Shown here piece after piece: positions 6,324 to 31,510 of a DNA stretch of 37,955 nucleotides. The notes under the pieces were generated by a model. That model was not told where the DNA came from, did no database searches, and was given only the letters and a program-made list of their open reading frames with translations. The stretch comes from Minisyncoccota bacterium. Its GTDB lineage: Bacteria > Patescibacteriota > Minisyncoccia > UBA6257 > 2-01-FULL-56-20. The stretch is from contig JANWIW010000004.1 of NCBI GenBank assembly GCA_025449695.1, forward strand, positions 1 to 37,955, written 5' to 3'. Both the position numbers and the translations under genes were made by a program. Position 1 is the stretch's first letter; each line of letters opens with the position of its first letter.

Positions 6324-6608
6324 TCAAACGCCTACCGCATCCGCGAACCGCACGAGGAGCGGCTTACGGGTGGGGTTCTGGGCGTAGTCGGCGCGCGCCC
6401 ACTTGATGGCCTGCGGGATCGTCAACATGAACCCGAGGTAAAAGATGGCAGCGCCGGCGCCGACGATCGTGAACATCCGCTCCGGGTGGTCGGGTCCCAT
6501 CAAAATCACCATGAATCCGATGATCCCCAACACGAAGCCGGTCTCGAGCAGGTTCTCAGCTTCGTTGTAAACGGCGGCAAGCACGCGCTTGATCGTAGCC
6601 TTCTTCAT
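6324..6608 (-). CDS. 94-aa predicted membrane protein
   Basis: The product has two likely transmembrane helices (GFVLGIIGFMVILM and FTIVGAGAAIFYLGFMLTI) joined by a short HPER loop, with basic flanks. No family is recognised. The ATG at 6608 is chosen over the track start at 6755 because CCAGGAGGAA sits 8-9 nt upstream and a full promoter lies before it. The longer ORF reads through a REP-like repeat. The stop is TGA, followed by a hairpin. Each expression signal is present, so the gene looks independently transcribed. Confidence 0.65.
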   Translation of the reverse strand: MKKATIKRVLAAVYNEAENLLETGFVLGIIGFMVILMGPDHPERMFTIVGAGAAIFYLGFMLTIPQAIKWARADYAQNPTRKPLLVRFADAVGV

Positions 6609-16844: not shown

Positions 16845-16967
16845 TGTTTTGCCGGAGAGGATACCCGCCTTCGCCAAGGCTTCGGCAGGGCACAATCCCA
16901 CTTCGCTCTTCGAGCTTCGCGGGGCACAACAAAATCTAAGCCTCGATTACTCGGCAAGATTTTCTAG

Positions 16968-17051
16968 TGCGCGGGAGAGGATTCGAACCTCCAAGCCCTT
17001 GCGGGCGCTACCACCTCAAGGTAGTGCGGTTGCCAGTTTCGCCACCCGCGC
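16968..17051 (-). tRNA. tRNA-Leu (anticodon GAG)
   Basis: The 84-nt sequence folds as a class II tRNA. The acceptor GCGCGGG pairs with CCCGCGC and A is the discriminator. The anticodon arm is CTACC-TTGAGGT-GGTAG with GAG at 34-36. The variable arm is long (CGCCCGCAAGGGC) and the T-arm is AGGTTCGAATCCT. It reads CUC leucine codons. CCA is not encoded. A LAGLIDADG gene ends one base upstream of its 5' end, so the tRNA is probably cotranscribed with it or relies on processing. Confidence 0.95.
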
Positions 17052-17052
17052 G

Positions 17053-17721
17053 TTAATCCAAGTGCTTGCCGATTATAGCGAAAGCCCGCTGAACTTTCAA
17101 ACGCTTGCGGCTTAAGCATATAACTGCGGGTGAATATAGGCGCTTGAGTAATGTGATGGATTCTTGTTTCGCATATCTCAACTGGTAATACTGGTAGGTT
17201 TGCGTATTGGATCGCCCATGATTTCGCGAAATATGACCGCGCAAGCCTGAAAGCGCTAAGACTTTTGCCCGCAACCATTCGATATGGGTCAAGCTTGCGG
17301 ACGTAAAACTGGTGTAGAACATGAAACTGGAACGCCAGCGCCAGTCCCAATATGAATAGAATGAGCCATCTCCATCAAAGTGACCGCGCAAGAAATCGAA
17401 GAAATATGGATCCGGCACATGTACAGACCCGATAATTTTAGATTTCGCGGGCATCAGGCCAATATCAAGGAGGAATTTGTAGAAATTCACGTCGCCAAAT
17501 TGAATACGTGTGTGTTGAGTGGCAGTAAATCCGGAGGTTTTATGACCGATTTTCACTTCTATACCCAGACATCGCATAAGATTTCTGAGTTGTTCGATAT
17601 CATCCGAGGTGAAATCGATATGTCTTCTGTCCTTGGAAAGACAACCGTCGGTAGTTAACAATCCTATTGCGTACGCAAACTCAGACGACCATTCTATTTT
17701 GACCTTAGAGAGAGGATGCAT
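17053..17721 (-). CDS. LAGLIDADG homing endonuclease abutting tRNA-Leu
   Basis: The 222-aa protein has two LAGLIDADG helices: FAYAIGLLTTDGCLS near residue 16 and FFDFLRGHFDGDGSF near residue 107. Each ends in the acidic metal-binding residue (TDG, GDG), so it is a monomeric two-motif enzyme. Such proteins cut long DNA targets and spread their own gene. The TAA stop is one base from the 5' end of tRNA-Leu, and no tRNA half or intron core is visible upstream, so it looks free-standing rather than intronic. Codon use is more AT-rich than its neighbours, consistent with recent arrival. No clear Shine-Dalgarno. Confidence 0.85.
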   Translation of the reverse strand: MHPLSKVKIEWSSEFAYAIGLLTTDGCLSKDRRHIDFTSDDIEQLRNLMRCLGIEVKIGHKTSGFTATQHTRIQFGDVNFYKFLLDIGLMPAKSKIIGSVHVPDPYFFDFLRGHFDGDGSFYSYWDWRWRSSFMFYTSFTSASLTHIEWLRAKVLALSGLRGHISRNHGRSNTQTYQYYQLRYAKQESITLLKRLYSPAVICLSRKRLKVQRAFAIIGKHLD

Positions 17722-19296: not shown

Positions 19297-19605
19297 TTAT
19301 ATAGTGACGCCGAGCTTCTTTCTGACCACGCGCGCGGGCTTCGTGCGCACGAAGTAGAGCTTGGACTTGTGCAGCTTCTTCGGCGAGCTGACCACCTCAA
19401 GCTTCGTGATGTTCGGCGAGCCGATCGGGAAGATCTTCTCCACGCCGACGCCGGCAAGGGTCGTCCGGACGGTGAAGGTGGCGCCGGTCTCAGCACCGTG
19501 CTTGCGCGCGAGGACCAGGCCTTCGAAGGGCGCGGCGGTCGAGCCTTCCCAGACGCGCACGCGCGCGCCTGCCTTTATCTGTTTCAAGACTTGGGAATCT
19601 ATCAT
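19297..19605 (-). CDS. rplS: 50S ribosomal protein L19
   Basis: The 102-aa product shows the L19 core: VRVWEGSTAAPFEGLVLARK, GATFTVRTTLAGVGVEKIFP and PNITKLEVV, with a basic C-terminus KSKLYFVRTKPARVVRKKLG. L19 sits at the 30S-50S interface. Its ATG overlaps the stop of the upstream response-regulator gene (ATGA), so it is probably translated by coupling; no independent Shine-Dalgarno is seen. Pairing with a response regulator is unusual; the common neighbour trmD is absent. Confidence 0.92.
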   Translation of the reverse strand: MIDSQVLKQIKAGARVRVWEGSTAAPFEGLVLARKHGAETGATFTVRTTLAGVGVEKIFPIGSPNITKLEVVSSPKKLHKSKLYFVRTKPARVVRKKLGVTI

Positions 19606-19991
19606 TTTTGGGATTGGATGATGCCTTTCAAAACGGTCGCCAGCTGGTCGATAGGGATCTGGGCCTTCACGAAGTAGTCCACTACCCCGAACCGCTTGGC
19701 CTTCTCGATGTCGCTATCCTGACCCAGATTCGAGGCCACCACCACGGGGGTGCGGCCCACCTGCGGGTCCATGGACATCTGCTCTAGGAACTCGAAGCCC
19801 GACATCTTGGGCATAACCAGGTCGAGCACGACGAGCGCGGGCTGCTGCTCCTTCAGGACCTTCATGCCCTCCTCCCCGTCGTAGGCCTGGAGCACAACGA
19901 AACCTTCCCGTTCCAGCCTCACCTTGAGGAGATTAGACAGGAACTTCTCGTCCTCCACCACGAGGACCTTCTTAGGGGTCTCATCTGCCAT
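19602..19991 (-). CDS. CheY-like single-domain response regulator
   Basis: The 129-aa receiver domain has VLVVEDEKFLSNLLKVRL (acidic pair), the phospho-acceptor Asp in ALVVLDLVMPKMSGFEFLEQ, the Ser/Thr-type switch in TPVVVASNLG, and Lys in VVDYFVKAQIP. There is no output domain. Start at 19991 (MADETPKK) is supported by TATACT ending 9 nt upstream. No histidine kinase is nearby, so the partner is unknown. The gene is joined to rplS by a 4-nt overlap. Confidence 0.88.
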   Translation of the reverse strand: MADETPKKVLVVEDEKFLSNLLKVRLEREGFVVLQAYDGEEGMKVLKEQQPALVVLDLVMPKMSGFEFLEQMSMDPQVGRTPVVVASNLGQDSDIEKAKRFGVVDYFVKAQIPIDQLATVLKGIIQSQK

Positions 19992-20000
19992 GTCGCGGGT

Positions 20001-20006
20001 AGTATA
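20001..20006 (-). promoter_or_regulatory. -10 box close to the response-regulator ATG
   Basis: ATGCTATACT followed by ACCCGCGAC and ATG, a 9-nt gap, predicting a 5' UTR of about 2 nt. Confidence 0.55.
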
Positions 20007-20160: not shown

Positions 20161-20280
20161 ATCGACGATTGCCTGATTCAATCAGACAAAGTTTAATTGA
20201 TCCACGCACAGCTTCCGCTACGCGTGCCTTGTTACGACTTAGCCCATGTCACCGAGCTCGGGCTGACCCCCCACGGAAAC

Positions 20281-20352
20281 GAGAATCTGGAATCTAGTAG
20301 CTGGAATCTAGTATTCCTACCAGATTCAAGATTCAAGATTCAAGATTCCAAT
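20281..20352 (-). repeat. GAATCT-word palindrome, copy C, in the tip of 16S helix 44
   Basis: GAATCTGGAATCTAG words face AGATTCAAGATTCAAGATTC words across a short centre, extending the distal end of helix 44 (V9). The flanking rRNA strands resume conserved pairing near the decoding site. Confidence 0.85.
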
Positions 20353-20400
20353 CTCGGTGGGAGGCTTTACCCGCTCCCGGCTCCCTTGGCTTGACGGGCG

Positions 20401-21283
20401 ATTATCTTCCCTAAAACAGGGAATGGATGTTCCCACCGCACGGACGGATTTCCCGTATGCGGCGAGCTCAATGCATCTGCTGCTTCAGTTGCAGCAATCT
20501 TTCCAAGCCTTCCGGAGTTAGATGTTGGCCTTTCTCGATAGCTTCGAGCAAGCCGCAGAAGATCCGGAAATCCTTCAGCTTTGAAGGGAACCGAAGGTGA
20601 TTTTTCATGAAGAAAGGAATGATTATTTTCAGGAGATCGCGTCGGTTGAAAACCTCGTATCGGTAACAATCTTGATGGTTTCGCCGACTATCTCTCTGGA
20701 AATACACTTCCCCGCATCTGAAATACTCCCTCAAATCTTCCAGTATCTCTTTATCTTTCTCGACAAGCTTGACATAGAACCTAGGTTCTACTCGCGCTCG
20801 CCGAATATATTCCGTGCTTGAGGTCGGGCTGCGAATAAAAGCAGTAAAACTGCCTTCGCCGTCAACCAAACCGACTATATAATCTGCTGTCAACATTGAG
20901 TGAGTGCCTTCCTCTGGCAGTGTGCCAAAGTACTATGACTCAGCTGACTTCTGGTGCTGCGTCAGTTTTAACTATATTATCCTCCAAAGCCGCGTTCCAA
21001 AACGAGGCTTGGGGATAAACAGACACCAGATCTCCATAGGTCAGTTACAAGGCTTTTCCTTGCATCCCGGCGCGGTTCCTTTTTTGATCTTCGCCATGCT
21101 CACCGCCTATCCATGGCTCGATCTCCGCTCCACGCTATCGTGGCATGCCGGGCTGCGGTTTGCGTCCGGATCCTCCACCGCAATTCTCACGAATTGCGGC
21201 TATCCTTCCGCTACGCTCCAGTAGACGCACTGAAGGGGCTGATTTTAACAGCCTAGTCTTGCAACCTGCTACGCGCTTTTATT
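20401..21283 (-). mobile_element. group II-type intron in 16S rRNA carrying a LAGLIDADG gene
   Basis: The 883-nt insertion interrupts GTACTCAC|CGCCCGT between E. coli positions 1399 and 1400. Near its 3' end is a domain V-like hairpin (20466-20432): 10-bp lower stem, 2-nt bulge, 4-bp upper stem ACGG/CCGU, GAAAU loop. A domain VI-like stem (TTCCCT/AGGGAA) follows and the intron ends in AT, matching the group II AY rule. CAGAAGTCAGCTGAGTCATA before the ORF matches a block seen in bacterial group II introns. A GTGCG lies at 21230, 53 nt inside the 5' boundary. A hairpin loop CGTGAG (near 21190) could pair with the exon CTCAC as EBS1-IBS1. The ORF is a LAGLIDADG protein, not a reverse transcriptase. 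Confidence 0.75.
20468..20896 (-). CDS. intron-encoded LAGLIDADG homing endonuclease
   Basis: The 142-aa single-motif protein has YIVGLVDGEGSFTAF near the N-terminus, the LAGLIDADG helix ending in the acidic residue, and the downstream EPRFYVKLVEKDKEILEDLR and NRRDLLKIIIPFF features of this family. One motif implies a homodimer. The ATG at 20896 follows AGAGGAAGG by about 9-12 nt. The TGA stop abuts the intron's domain V-like hairpin, the expected position of a domain IV ORF. It probably promotes homing of the intron into intronless 16S genes; a role in splicing is possible but unsupported. Confidence 0.88.
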   Translation of the reverse strand: MLTADYIVGLVDGEGSFTAFIRSPTSSTEYIRRARVEPRFYVKLVEKDKEILEDLREYFRCGEVYFQRDSRRNHQDCYRYEVFNRRDLLKIIIPFFMKNHLRFPSKLKDFRIFCGLLEAIEKGQHLTPEGLERLLQLKQQMH

Positions 21284-21533
21284 GTGAGTACAGGACTCGA
21301 GAACGTATTCACCGTGGTATAGCTGACCCACGATTACTAGCAATTCCAGCTTCATGGGGGCGAGTTGCAGCCCCCAATCCGAACTAGGACGCGGTTTAAG
21401 GGATTAGCTCCACCTTTCGGTTTGGCAGCCCATTGTCCGCGCCATTGTAACATGAGTGTAGCCCCGGGCATCAGAGGGCCATGCTGATTTGACGTCATCC
21501 CCTCCTTCCTCCCAGCCTGAAGGGCGCGAATAC

Positions 21534-21610
21534 AAGAATCTGGTATCTAGAATCTGGAATCTGGTAGGAACGTGTCCTTGCTAGATTCTAGATTCAAGAT
21601 TCTAGATTCT
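21534..21610 (-). repeat. GAATCT-word palindrome, copy D, in the tip of 16S helix 39
   Basis: The rRNA stem CCCAGCCT/AGGCTGGG (helix 39, V7) is extended by AGAATCTAGAATC words facing GATTCCAGATTCTAG words, with a CACG-containing tip. It is the same family as the smc-rnc and rnc-nusB spacers. Confidence 0.87.
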
Positions 21611-21703
21611 GCTCCCGCTCTTTAGGCTGGGCAGTCCTCCGTGACACTTGTAACACGGAGCAGGGGTTGCGCTCGTTACCCCAATTAAGGGAACGCCTCA
21701 CGG

Positions 21704-21735
<32 letters not shown>

Positions 21736-21862
21736 CTTGGGGTCCCTTGCGGGAAAGGCAATGTTTCCATCGCCGGTCTCCAAGCATTTCAAGCCCGGGT
21801 GAGGTTCTTCGTTCATCGTCGAATTAAACCTCATGTTCCACTGCTTGTGCGAGTCCCCGTCT

Positions 21863-21894
<32 letters not shown>

Positions 21895-22522
21895 TCCCAG
21901 GCGGCCTGCTTAACGCGTTAGCTCCGCCACTCCGAGGGTCGATACTCGAAACAGCAAGCAGGCATCGTTTAGGGCGTGGACTACAAGGGTATCTAATCCT
22001 TTTTGATCCCCACGCTTTCGTGTTTCAGAGTCAGGTACGCGCCAGCGAGTTGCCTTCGCCTTTGGTGTTCCCCACGATATCAACGGATTTCACCCCTACA
22101 CCGTGAGTTCCATGCACCTCTCACCTCCTCCAGTCCGATCGTATCTCCGGCACTTCCACCGTTAGGCAGTGGGCTTTAACCAGAGACGCATCGGACCTCC
22201 TACACGCGCTTTACGCCCAATAAATCCGGATAACGCTTGTGGTCTACGTATTACCGCTGGTGCTGGCACGTAGTTACCAACCACTTTCCGCTAGGTGATC
22301 ACCGAAGTTTCTGCCTAGCTACCGCAGTTTACGACCCGAAGGCCTTCATCCTGCACGCGGCGTCGCTCGATCAGACTTTCGTCCATTGTCGAATATTCTC
22401 GACTGCTGCCTCCCGTAGGAGTACGAGCCGTGTCTCAGTCTCGTCGTTGGGGGTCAGGCTCTCACCTCCCCTACCGGTCATAGCCTTGGTAAGCCGTTAC
22501 CTTACCAACTAGCTGATCGGAC

Positions 22523-22819
22523 CTAAGCCGATCTCAGAGTGCCAGCCTCACTTTTGACCTTCTGCAGTAAGCTTCTGTGGATTCTTTTCATGAGCTCGTG
22601 CTTTGAGCTGCCATGATGCTTAAGTCTCGATTCACGCTTTCGCGCATCACTCTCATTGCGATACGCTTCAGCGTAAACCAATTTCCATTCTCCGGAACTA
22701 CGCCGAGTTGACGGGTTCAGGTTCCGTTTATGAGAATCGAGACGCTTCGCTAAATCCTTCGTGAAACCAATGTAGATTTTGTGATTAACCGAGTGTTGGA
22801 TGATGTAGACCACATACAT
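22523..22819 (-). CDS. GIY-YIG endonuclease encoded inside the 16S V2 insert
   Basis: The protein (98 aa from the ATG at 22819) starts MYVVYIIQHSVNHKIYIGFT, the GIY-YIG core, followed by KDLAKRLDSHKR and EAYRNESDARKRESRLKHHG, like small UPF0213-type nucleases. The track start at 22843 adds eight residues read from the flanking stem. The last ~12 codons also run through the right-hand stem and into mature 16S sequence before the stop. It probably nicks or cuts an intron-less 16S allele and drives spread of the insert. Confidence 0.85.
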   Translation of the reverse strand: MYVVYIIQHSVNHKIYIGFTKDLAKRLDSHKRNLNPSTRRSSGEWKLVYAEAYRNESDARKRESRLKHHGSSKHELMKRIHRSLLQKVKSEAGTLRSA

Positions 22820-22856
22820 TTCATCATCGTAGCACAAGGTCAAAAGTGAAGCTGGC
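22541..22856 (-). mobile_element. stem-flanked intervening sequence in 16S V2 region
   Basis: Arms GCCAGCCTCACTTTTGACCT (22541-) and AAGGTCAAAAGTGAAGCTGG (22836-) pair over 21 positions with one mismatch, enclosing about 275 nt with the GIY-YIG ORF. The site is the variable helix near E. coli 200. The layout matches rRNA intervening sequences that are cut out by RNase III and leave a fragmented rRNA, rather than a self-splicing intron; no group I or II core is seen here. Confidence 0.8.
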
Positions 22857-23076
22857 TTTACCGGTGAAGGACCATCGGGTATTACCCCGCCTTTCGGCGG
22901 ACTATTCCCGGCTCTGAGGTACGTACTAGGGTGTTACTAACTCGTTCGCCGCTAAACTATCCAATCCGCATTCTTGATGTAATCGCAAATCCTTCAAAGA
23001 TAGTTCCGCTCGACTTGCATGCCTTATCCACGCCGCCAGCGTTCATCCTGGACCAGGATCAAATCCTCTAATATAA

Positions 23077-23463: not shown

Positions 23464-24177
23464 TCAATCAGACACGGAGCACCGGCAGTCCCGATCGGGC
23501 ATTGTTCCATCGGCGCATAGGTTGGCCGGTGCGACGTAGCCGGGCGCGACCTCGACCATCTCGTGGCACTTGCCGACATTCCGAGGCGTCATGATGAGCG
23601 TGGCACGCTGAATCGCCGGGCGGCGCATGGATGCCGCGATCTGCGCGGTACGCTGAATGCCGAACTGCCGGACCGCTTGGGCGGCCGCCTGGATCGACAT
23701 GGCCTGCAGGGGATCGTCGCTCGAGGCGGACACGTCATCCGGACGGACCGTGACGAGGGCGGCGAAGCTGCCGTCGGAACTGCGCAGGTTGACTTTCAAG
23801 CCGCTCTGCACGCTCTCGCCCGCAGGAGCAACCGTACCCTGCATGACGGGCGCCTCCTCCGCGGCCGGATCGAAGCGCGCGCCCGCGACGAGCAGCACCA
23901 TGTTCAGCGCCGTCTTCATCGTCTCCGCTTCCGGGGCGGCGCCGCTCATTTCAATCCCGCGAACGACTACGCCGTCCATGATCGGGAGTTCGTCCTCTTC
24001 GATGTAGCCGGCGCTCGTGAGATCGAGAGCGGGCCCGATCGGGAGAACCGGCTTCTCGACGCAGATTTCCACGGGAGTGCGCGACAGGACACCGACCGGC
24101 TCGGTCGGGTCGCTCGCGTACGCGAGCACGGATGGAAGGGTAATGCACAACACAAGAATGAGAATTCGGGAACGCAT
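23464..24177 (-). CDS. secreted hypothetical protein, 237 aa
   Basis: A classical signal peptide opens the product (MRSRILILVLCITLPSVLAYA, cleavage likely after AYA). The mature part shows LRSSDGSFAALVTVRPDDVS and RFGIQRTAQIAASMRRPAIQRATLIM-like segments and four or more cysteines near the C-terminus (GKCHEMVEV, NLCADG, DRDCRCSVSD), possibly disulfide-bonded outside the cell. No family is recognised. AAGGAGGCAAATCGC precedes the ATG. Its long 5' leader has two stable hairpins, the first able to pair with the Shine-Dalgarno region. It is the most promoter-distal coordinate of the SD-class array but has its own promoter. Confidence 0.7.
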   Translation of the reverse strand: MRSRILILVLCITLPSVLAYASDPTEPVGVLSRTPVEICVEKPVLPIGPALDLTSAGYIEEDELPIMDGVVVRGIEMSGAAPEAETMKTALNMVLLVAGARFDPAAEEAPVMQGTVAPAGESVQSGLKVNLRSSDGSFAALVTVRPDDVSASSDDPLQAMSIQAAAQAVRQFGIQRTAQIAASMRRPAIQRATLIMTPRNVGKCHEMVEVAPGYVAPANLCADGTMPDRDCRCSVSD

Positions 24178-25331: not shown

Positions 25332-26249
25332 CTACAGGAGGACCTTGTCGATCGCGGTGAGGGCGCGGGCGTACTGGCCGGTCCAGCAGCGTTCCAGCGC
25401 GTCCCTTTCGGCCGACTCGGGAAACTCGCTCCGCCACGGCCCTTCGCAGATCTGCATCGCCTTGCCCTGGCTCGCATGCCAGAGAAAGCCTGACGGTCCC
25501 GGCTCGTCGTTGAACGAGACGCGCCAGTCCTTGCCGGCCATCTCATTGGGACGCATCCAAACCATGAGGCCATTCCTGGTGTCGACCGTATAGCGCCAGC
25601 CGTCACTCACGACGACTACCACCTTGCCGGTGGGATACGGGTCATACTTCAGCATGGCCACGGTCTCGCGCCCCGTCTCGATCTTCCAAACGACGCGGTT
25701 GGCGAGGTCCTGATTCTGCCGGATGGCGAGAGCGGTGCCGGAGACGGCTGGCTGGATGACAGCCCGAACGGTTGGCGCGGACGGATGGGGCGCCGGAACT
25801 GCGGTGCCCGGCGCGGGCCGCGGGGCCAGGAGCAGGCCGAGGACGAAGCCCGCGAGGAGCGTGTAGAACCCGGTCATGATGAGCGCTGCCCAGCTCGGGC
25901 CGCGGCGGCGGGCCGATGCGTCCGGCACATTCACGTTGATGGTGGACGTGTCGGCGATGAAGGTAACCTCGGGCGCCCCGTTCCGGACGTTCACCGTGGT
26001 AACCTCCGCGCTCTCTGAGGCGTTCACGTCAGCCATGAGCTGCGATTCCACCGTCTGCACATTCACCAGGATGTGGTGGTGGCAGGGCGGCCGCGACGCG
26101 GCGAGGGTGAGCTCGGTCAAGGTAAGAGGCGCGCCTGGCCTGCGCCGCGCGAGAGGCTCCAGATCCGGGCGCCTGGGGCTTCCCCCATATATCGCGCGCG
26201 AAGAGCGTCCTATCCTGCCGCGATTGCGGGGGGTGTCAACTTTACGCAT
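25332..26249 (-). CDS. single-pass membrane protein with a C-terminal extracytoplasmic domain
   Basis: I use the ATG at 26249 (MRKVDTPRNRG), preceded by GAAGGAGGGAATATCC, instead of the track start at 26285. It has a basic N-terminal ~60 residues, then a strand-rich region (VTTVNVRNGAPEVTFIADTS), one transmembrane helix (SWAALIMTGFYTLLAGFVLGLLLA), a Pro/Ala linker, and a C-terminal domain with GKVVVVVSDGWRYTVDTRNG, MVWMRPNEMAGKDWRVSF and CEGPWRSEFPESAERDAL. No family is recognised. It has its own TTGACG-17-CATAAT promoter and the 5'-UTR motif shared with the next two genes. Stop is TAG. Confidence 0.6.
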   Translation of the reverse strand: MRKVDTPRNRGRIGRSSRAIYGGSPRRPDLEPLARRRPGAPLTLTELTLAASRPPCHHHILVNVQTVESQLMADVNASESAEVTTVNVRNGAPEVTFIADTSTINVNVPDASARRRGPSWAALIMTGFYTLLAGFVLGLLLAPRPAPGTAVPAPHPSAPTVRAVIQPAVSGTALAIRQNQDLANRVVWKIETGRETVAMLKYDPYPTGKVVVVVSDGWRYTVDTRNGLMVWMRPNEMAGKDWRVSFNDEPGPSGFLWHASQGKAMQICEGPWRSEFPESAERDALERCWTGQYARALTAIDKVLL

Positions 26250-28824: not shown

Positions 28825-29931
28825 CTAGTAGGCCGTTTGATTCTGCCGGTGCAGGCGCGAGCTGATCGCCATAGCAAAGAGGAACAGGATGGGGAAGAAG
28901 TCGAGACCCAGAGCGAAGGACCAGGCATAGCTGACCTCGCGCCAGTACCGGAGCACGGCCTGGGGCGCGTCGATCATGCTGAAGGCCTGCTGTTGCTCGA
29001 GGACTTCCTCGTCGTCGCCCACGACCTCGGCGATGATCTGCTGGGAAGTAGCGACGACATCCTTCATGCGCTTCACCGCGGCGATTTGTCCTGGCTGGTT
29101 GCCGGGATCGGACACCATCGCGAGACGCGAGAGATTCTTGTTGATCTGCTTCACGTAACTCCGAGAAGAGATACTGTTCAGGGTCGCGAGGAGCTCGTTG
29201 ATGTCGGCAAGCTCCTTCGTGAACTTGAGGCTGTTCTCTTCCATAAGCCTCGTGTCACCGACCGATCCCCTGTCGCTCTCCGCGGCGATCTTGCGAGCCG
29301 CCGCCAACTTCTTCTTCAGCCCGTCATAGGTGTCTTTGCGGAGCTTGGCGTTGCCCTTGATCTGATCGGCGACGTTGCGGAAGAGGTTGGCCGTCGTCTC
29401 CAGATTCACCACCACCTCGCCACGCCCCTTCAGATTGGAAAGCCCTCCGCCCATATCGGTCCGCGCGTACGAGTCGAACTGCCTGGCCTGGCTCTCGAAG
29501 ACGGGCACGAGGTTGGCCTCGCGTTCGCCCCGCTGCCAGTAACCGCTCGCCAGCCTCTCTGCGGTGTCGATCGTCTTGGTCATGTGGGTAACCTGCGCGC
29601 GGCGGCCGCCGATCGTGATCACCGTCCAGATCGTCGAGAATCCGAAAATCACCGCGACGAACGGAATCGCGAGCAGGCCGTACAGTCCGAGCTGCAGGCC
29701 ACTCGAGTACTCGATGTGCCGGCCGACGAAATACCAGAATCCGGACGCGCAACAGCCGGCGGCCATCGCCACGCCGCACTGGATGAAGAAATCGTCGGTG
29801 ACGGTCATGAGTCCCATGGCCGTGGTGTAGATGCTCGCGATGCCGCAGACGATGGTGAGGAACGTGAAAATGGCGAATGTGGTTTTGGCGGCCTGCTCAC
29901 GGGGTGATAACTGCCGCTGATTCGTGTTCAT
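28825..29931 (-). CDS. four-TM membrane protein with a coiled-coil extracytoplasmic or cytoplasmic domain
   Basis: This 368-aa protein has three N-terminal membrane helices (FAIFTFLTIVCGIASIYTTA, FFIQCGVAMAAGCCASGFWYF, LGLYGLLAIPFVAVIFGFST), a central ~200-residue helical domain (QRGEREANLVPVFESQARQF, LRKDTYDGLKKKLAAARKIA), and one C-terminal helix (WSFALGLDFFPILFLFAMAI). The shape resembles sensor-like or scaffold membrane proteins, but no family is recognised. The ATG overlaps the stop of the 97-aa gene upstream (ATGA) with CAGGAGGGCAGTC before it, so the two form an operon. Stop is TAG, followed by the conserved double hairpin. Confidence 0.65.
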   Translation of the reverse strand: MNTNQRQLSPREQAAKTTFAIFTFLTIVCGIASIYTTAMGLMTVTDDFFIQCGVAMAAGCCASGFWYFVGRHIEYSSGLQLGLYGLLAIPFVAVIFGFSTIWTVITIGGRRAQVTHMTKTIDTAERLASGYWQRGEREANLVPVFESQARQFDSYARTDMGGGLSNLKGRGEVVVNLETTANLFRNVADQIKGNAKLRKDTYDGLKKKLAAARKIAAESDRGSVGDTRLMEENSLKFTKELADINELLATLNSISSRSYVKQINKNLSRLAMVSDPGNQPGQIAAVKRMKDVVATSQQIIAEVVGDDEEVLEQQQAFSMIDAPQAVLRYWREVSYAWSFALGLDFFPILFLFAMAISSRLHRQNQTAY

Positions 29932-30580: not shown

Positions 30581-31510
30581 TCAGCCTTGCGTCTCCCACA
30601 GCCGGTGAACCTTGCGCATCACCTCGTCGGTGATACCAAGCTCCTTCTGCGTGAAGCCGTAGTCGATCATCGTGCCCATGAGCGCCCGCGCCGCGTTTGC
30701 CCCGTCTTCGCGCACCTTATTGTAGGCGTCGCTGACCTCCTGGCTGGCGCTGGCAGCGGGTTCCGGCGCGCTCGGGTCGTACTTCTGCACGCTCTCGACG
30801 AGCGCGGGCACCGCCTTCTTGAACGTGGTCTTGAAGAAACCGTTGGCCTCTTCGCCGGTCATGCCGAGCTCCTTGCTCGTCGGATCGACGCCGGCGATGT
30901 CCGCGCGCAGGATGGCCTCTTCGACAAGTCCCGTCGGGACAAAAGCGGGGTGGCGACGCCCGACGGTGACGATGTAGGCCAGGTCCTCCGGGATCGGCTT
31001 GCCGGTCTTCACGAGCGCAAGAAGGGCCTTCGCGGACTCGAGGTTTGTGGTTTTGACATACTCGTCCGCCTTCTCACGGGTGACGCCGGCCTCGGTAACC
31101 ACGGCGGCGTAGGACTCGCTGGAGCTGGTCATGCGATTCTTGAGAGCTTCCGCGGCCGCGTACTTCTCCTGCCATTCAAGCGCGGTGCGGATCGTCGAAT
31201 CAACGCCCTTCGCGTGATCGGCAAAGGTCATCGTCGTGCTGACCGGCTTCTCGATGGCCGCGATGCTCTCCTTGACCTCGGCGAGATCGCGGTCATGCTC
31301 CTGCTGCCGGCGCTCACGTGCGAGCTTGGCATCGGCGGCGGTGTCGGTGGTCAGCGTGGTCGCCGTGTTATCAGCATCATCCGTGGGAACGCGGCTGATC
31401 GTCGCGGTGGACGTATCGGTCGCGGAATCCGCGGTGTTTTCGTCGCCACAGGCGGCGATCAAGACAGTGAGAGCGAGCAGTATTGCGAAGATCCAACGGT
31501 TTGCTTTCAA
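30581..31510 (-). CDS. lipoprotein of unknown function, 309 aa
   Basis: The N-terminus MKANRWIFAILLALTVLIAAC has a lipobox (LIAAC), so the mature protein should be lipid-anchored at Cys-21. A Thr/Asp-rich linker (DSATDTSTATISRVPTDDAD) follows, then a helical domain with a repeated pattern: EAGVTREKADEYVKTTNLES and KELGMTGEEANGFFKTTF and QKELGITDEVMRKVHRLW, three related helix-turn units. No family is recognised. The start is a TTG at 31510 after AAGGAGAAGGAAC. A consensus promoter lies upstream and a double hairpin follows the stop. Confidence 0.68.
   Translation of the reverse strand: MKANRWIFAILLALTVLIAACGDENTADSATDTSTATISRVPTDDADNTATTLTTDTAADAKLARERRQQEHDRDLAEVKESIAAIEKPVSTTMTFADHAKGVDSTIRTALEWQEKYAAAEALKNRMTSSSESYAAVVTEAGVTREKADEYVKTTNLESAKALLALVKTGKPIPEDLAYIVTVGRRHPAFVPTGLVEEAILRADIAGVDPTSKELGMTGEEANGFFKTTFKKAVPALVESVQKYDPSAPEPAASASQEVSDAYNKVREDGANAARALMGTMIDYGFTQKELGITDEVMRKVHRLWETQG

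Follow-up and report, generated by a model that had tools for sequence, protein, structure and literature searches.

Probable inherited loss and replacement of the 16S rRNA anti-Shine-Dalgarno sequence in a class of Patescibacteria with predicted, mainly leaderless gene starts

Introduction

The CCUCC tail of 16S rRNA is among the most conserved of bacterial sequences, and loss of this anti-Shine-Dalgarno (anti-SD) element is already known in endosymbionts, haemotropic mycoplasmas and Flavobacteriia. Genomes of this kind have been described in Flavobacteriia, haemotropic Mycoplasma, Carsonella and Hodgkinia (Lim, Furuta and Kobayashi 2012, PMC3522020; Amin et al. 2018, 128 taxa, PMC6107228), and in these no new SD sequence matches the altered tail, the loss of the tail having come with the loss of the SD. 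In Bacteroidetes such as F. johnsoniae the CCUCC is kept but sequestered (PMC6847099; Jha et al. 2021, cited through PMC9723584). Initiation dominated by leaderless mRNAs is documented in mycobacteria (PMC4633059) and Haloferax volcanii (PMC3986360), and the mammalian mitochondrial small-subunit rRNA has no anti-SD, its mRNAs being largely leaderless (PMC10582724).

The 16S rRNA gene considered here lies in a 37,955-nt stretch of DNA, hereafter the window, from a bacterium whose genome is a metagenome assembly (983 kb, 92.7% complete, 2% estimated contamination). Like the described non-anti-SD genomes, it combines an undamaged helix 45 with the absence of CCUCC from any copy found (at 92.7% completeness), has no variant SD for its new tail, and appears to rely predominantly on SD-independent initiation. 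Unlike them, it belongs to a group in which the change spans much of a Patescibacteria class, the tree requiring at least four changes; its replacement tail is conserved across families, its genes are marked at the start by a -10 box of the leaderless type, and some of them keep strong SDs (41/550 vs about 10). As with the sequestered anti-SD of Bacteroidetes, most genes would dispense with SD:anti-SD pairing, yet there the CCUCC is hidden and here it is gone. Mycobacteria and Haloferax volcanii keep the anti-SD that has been lost here; as in those organisms, the -10 box would place the mRNA start at or near the start codon, which in our case is read from the DNA. Mammalian mitochondria likewise lack an anti-SD and have largely leaderless mRNAs, but are organelles and not a free bacterial lineage.

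Results

The 16S rRNA gene and its 3' end

A single 16S gene was detected in the genome, on the minus strand of the window (20190-23074, of which Rfam aligns 23074-21232), its exon pieces CGCCCGTC...GGATCA-ATTAAACT following a LAGLIDADG intron; no other copy with a normal tail, one of the two findings by which the earlier note would have been overturned, was found at 92.7% completeness. The intron (about 21279-20399), which scores below the gathering score of every Rfam intron family, separates GTACTCAC from CGCCCGTC and holds a LAGLIDADG endonuclease ORF (20468-20896, minus strand), and a GIY-YIG homing endonuclease ORF (22523-22843, minus strand) sits in an insertion of the 5' part of the gene.

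Along the minus strand, GTCGTAACAAGG (20238-20227) stands directly before helix 45, CACGCGTAGCGGAAGCTGTGCGT (20226-20204), whose GGAA loop is undamaged; there follow GGATCA, the conserved beginning of the 3' tail (20203-20198), and ATTAAACT (20197-20190), giving the order ...AAGTCGTAACAAGG-CACGCGTAGCGGAAGCTGTGCGT-GGATCA-ATTAAACT-TTGTC... for the 3' end. The earlier note had described an intact helix 45 followed by GGATCA and a 3' end without CCTCC, and both descriptions are accurate: ATTAAACT occupies the site where CCTCCTTA is expected, CCTCC is absent from the tail, and the relatives carry the same conserved alternative. No CCTCC was found in the 100 nt downstream of the tail; a chance-looking CCTCCTT about 120 nt downstream lies within a palindrome and is not common to relatives. 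Exact matches to GGATCACCTCC occur three times elsewhere in the genome, each time inside a long open frame and away from any rRNA context, and a trans-encoded piece was rejected on these grounds.

Straight after the tail lies a short hairpin (20168-20189, minus strand; z -2.5 for the window) that differs in sequence among relatives and probably belongs to the precursor only. Small variable hairpins of this kind, often with GTCGA next, stand right behind the tail in the relatives as well as in the window, and are probably processing elements. The further suggestion of the earlier note, that a downstream palindrome had displaced the tail, is not supported, since ATTAAACT is kept across families while the hairpin varies freely; moreover, no 3' piece bearing CCTCC lies downstream. 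Complementarity between AATTAAAC and the conserved 16S stretch GGTTTAATTC was also noticed and set aside, as a stretch conserved almost everywhere leaves covariation unable to test the pairing.

Directly downstream of the 16S gene are bL19 and a response regulator (19297-19991), the latter with a -10 box TATACT (20001-20006, minus strand) 9 nt before its ATG at 19991, which predicts a leader of a few nt at most; in one relative (L074) the gene in the same position, just downstream of 16S, is preceded by GGGACA-17-TATAAT-6-ATG. The window contains no 23S gene, and the rRNA genes appear unlinked here. Elsewhere in the window, a LAGLIDADG_3 ORF (17053-17721) adjoins tRNA-Leu(gag) (16967-17051) and is possibly part of a tRNA-associated intron or mobile element.

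Inheritance of the replacement tail

Comparison with relatives, which the earlier note had proposed as a check, placed the absence of CCTCC at the same site in all relatives of the ATTAAACT type. Among family members with a match to the helix-45 pattern, 19 of 20 carry ATTAAACT or a near variant. The lone member with CCTCC (G031, contig L020), reading CCTCCTTT, has a different helix 45, and its sequence recurs as a second copy in the unrelated genome G349; for both reasons we set it aside as a probable contaminant. When 84,980 species genomes were scanned for GGATCAATTAA after helix 45, 48 stretches matched; wherever the record name is informative it points to the Parcubacteria group, several being named Candidatus Liptonbacteria, Harrisonbacteria or Jorgensenbacteria. 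Because dozens of independent assemblies carry the same tail, reads with CCTCC or a normal second copy are unlikely, and as far as assembled sequences can tell the tail without CCTCC is inherited and not an assembly error, the change being clade-wide and not local to this genome.

The extent of conservation is informative as well. With positions numbered from the GG of GGATCA, 52 distinct tails of relatives begin ATTA after GGATCA (positions 7-10, which are fixed by this selection and carry no evidence), positions 11-15 then hold 1.6, 1.25, 0.9, 1.3 and 0.7 bits, and from position 16 on the values are mostly 0.1-0.3 bits; in 21 relatives with CCTCC, conservation extends up to position 16 and then drops. 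In its conserved length the replacement tail thus comes close to a normal mature tail; this hints, without proof, at a mature 16S that ends about where conservation stops. Some relatives show drift of the tail to ATTAATTT or TTTTATTA.

As a separate observation, several families (L022, L023, L030, L035, L036, L039, L088, L103) share a recurrent hairpin, for example GGTCGTGGAGCNNTAAGTCACGACC, some 50-110 nt beyond the 16S tail on its downstream side. Its loop GGAGCYNTAAGT is conserved, and it appears to be an RNA element of the rRNA trailer that has yet to be listed.

Extent of the loss in the class and phylum

In a class sample of 383 genomes, 165 of them with a match, CCTCC is absent from at least 105 and kept in at least 38, as counted by hand-transcription among the matches listed. 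The kinds of loss vary (ATTAAACT, TTTTATTA, ACTACATT); several families have the GGATCA altered too, to GGATTA or GGAACA, and carry small hairpins, for example TTCAATTTGAA or TCCAATTGGA. In six families (f41, f63, f92, f103, f112, f116) the 16S tail terminates in a tiny hairpin (TTCAATTTGAA, TCCAATTGGA, TTCCAACGGAA), both arms of which change together between families. In the phylum sample outside the class, nearly every true 16S end of other Patescibacteria keeps CCTCCTTT.

A 16S tree of 74 rows, built with the tail columns excluded, implies at least four changes of tail state; the exact number of losses is unsettled because the deep branches are weakly supported. The clade of the window comprises 25 rows, all without CCTCC (support 97/99), and the keepers form two clades plus the outgroup. 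Loss of bS21 was rejected as the cause of the tail change, since this platform protein is present in this genome and shows no clear association with the tail in the class (30/38 keepers vs 66/105 non-keepers among the matches listed, transcribed by hand, p=0.11).

Gene starts

Start signals were examined in 550 genes from 674 kb of the genome, called by a simple gene finder based on codon scores without an SD term, so that start calls are approximate; counts of SD or -10 motifs over the whole genome without gene calls were too noisy and were not used. A strict -10 box lies between -15 and -5 in 99/550 genes, against about 10 (6-16) in regions shifted further upstream, and its start position peaks sharply at -12, a box starting at -12 or -13 being the dominant start signal of the genome. 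The earlier note spoke of many leaderless genes, and many genes do look leaderless: a sizeable fraction has a -10 box some 12 nt ahead of the start codon, the arrangement typical of leaderless mRNAs. The enrichment recurs in four relatives (G030, G022, G062, G555) and in G343, which keeps CCTCC and has no SD preference near its starts. Duplex energies near starts reveal no overall preference for the own or the canonical tail in G000, G030, G062, G343 and G555, and words complementary to the new tail are not enriched upstream of starts.

These patterns are best explained if members of this class select their starts chiefly in the leaderless manner. As a keeper of CCTCC already has the leaderless layout and no SD use, leaderless starts seem to have preceded the loss of the tail and to have allowed it.

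Strong SD motifs on lineage-specific genes

A minority of genes departs from this layout. Strong SD hexamers occur at -18 to -3 in 41/550 genes, against about 10 (7-15) in shifted regions, and a stricter count (spacing 3-9, first genes only) gives 35 against a mean of 4.4 expected. A -10 box at the leaderless position is missing from all 41; 39 of them are the first gene of their transcript, their G+C is host-like, and in some cases TTGACA/TATAAT promoters lie further upstream, predicting a leader of roughly 20 nt. Examples on the minus strand of the window are the ORFans at 23464-24177 (AAGGAGG-8-ATG), 25332-26249 (AAGGAGG), 28825-29931 (AGGAGG; homologue in 0/37 other family genomes) and 30581-31510 (SD-like AAGGAG, TTG start), together with a small ORF (6324-6608) that has a TTGACT/TATTAT-type promoter and an AGGAGG leader.

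Nearly all of the strong-SD genes are single-gene, lineage-specific ORFans. By tblastn (E < 1e-5) against 2.16 Mb from other genomes, a homologue was found for 1/41 SD genes, vs 55/85 leaderless first genes and 183/315 other first genes, a deficit (p about 1e-12) that holds for genes under 250 aa (p 2e-5 and 2e-7) and shows the same trend in relatives (1/7 in G030, 0/6 in G062). The earlier note had seen strong SDs on accessory genes, and it is there that they are concentrated. Two genes retain the SD in homologues from genomes without CCTCC, namely a radical-SAM gene (61% identity, G011) and L124:2370-2912 (34% identity, G062); in radical-SAM homologues of lower identity (34-37%) no clear SD is seen. 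Three of 20 SD genes tested exceeded the Pfam cut-off, as radical SAM, exo/endonuclease/phosphatase and ROK, and PHROGs gave only weak matches for ten window or SD-gene proteins. A viral origin of two SD genes is unsupported, as viral contigs contained no relatives of them.

Discussion

Very probably, the single 16S gene of this member of the Parcubacteria group has undergone a true inherited loss and replacement of its anti-SD, in cells whose genes start mainly without leaders and whose SD-bearing genes are most likely incoming. Most genes would be expressed from leaderless or near-leaderless mRNAs, the -10 box making transcription begin on the start codon itself or only a few nt away; the ribosome would choose its start by a 5'-terminal AUG with the initiator tRNA, or by re-initiation within operons. 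With start choice independent of pairing between 16S and mRNA, that pairing would no longer be needed, and the tail would be free to change and CCTCC to drift away. The residual conservation of AUUAAACU would probably reflect 3'-end processing or contacts on the 30S platform and not mRNA pairing.

What speaks against the inherited-loss reading is that strong SDs in 41/550 genes, and their presence in two divergent homologues, are unexpected if SDs are unreadable. These accessory genes might instead be functional, their AGGAGG being recognised not by the 16S tail but by another reader, such as a protein, a different RNA or an accessory ribosome population, with two systems serving two gene classes. 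We consider this unlikely, even though the 35 well-spaced strong SDs against 4.4 expected, the consistent lack of a leaderless-position -10 box, the first place in the transcript of 39/41, the host-like G+C, the TTGACA/TATAAT promoters that in some cases predict a leader of roughly 20 nt, and the SD retained by homologues (61% and 34% protein identity) of other hosts lacking CCTCC would all suit it: no candidate reader was found, retention is known from two gene families, and the ORFan status (1/41 with a homologue) is equally expected under gene influx. The broader proposal that two start-site systems operate without a 16S anti-SD, leaderless for conserved genes and SD-led through another reader for lineage-specific ones, appears to us improbable. 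Most likely, the SD-bearing accessory genes are passing or recently gained and carry a signal unreadable here in the usual way; we favour such influx over a hidden way of reading SDs.

The remaining alternatives concern the tail itself. An intron or split gene might part a CCTCC exon from helix 45, splicing then restoring a normal tail, and this 16S gene does already contain introns with homing endonucleases; across 66 distinct non-CCTCC tails, however, there is no CCTCC within 60 nt and only sporadic occurrence beyond, so that no downstream exon is conserved in relatives, the tail itself is conserved, and the CCTCCTT of the window sits in a palindrome and does not recur in relatives, all of which makes splicing very improbable. 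Nor is it at all likely that the tail is a new anti-SD pairing with a new, AGTTTAAT-like SD, for while its conservation reaches about as far as that of a normal 3' tail, no complementary start motif exists, complementary words being no more frequent and duplex energy no lower near starts, and the tails of relatives drift to ATTAATTT or TTTTATTA. An assembly error, a chimera or a 16S pseudogene might be imagined in a metagenome assembly with 2% estimated contamination; it is extremely improbable given the same tail in dozens of independent assemblies and genera, the undamaged helix 45 and the single 16S.

We found no report of anti-SD loss in Patescibacteria, Parcubacteria or CPR in the open-access literature, preprints excluded, so that an earlier description may exist elsewhere; Patescibacteria are not named in the parts considered of PMC3522020, PMC6107228 and the later survey PMC10783764. 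A class in which so conserved a tail has been lost repeatedly beside sister families that keep CCTCC offers a natural experiment on why bacteria hold on to the anti-SD and on what takes its place. Methods that learn to predict start sites from SD motifs will fail in such genomes. With the SD-bearing ORFans one can test whether SDs can be used without an anti-SD or mark incoming genes.
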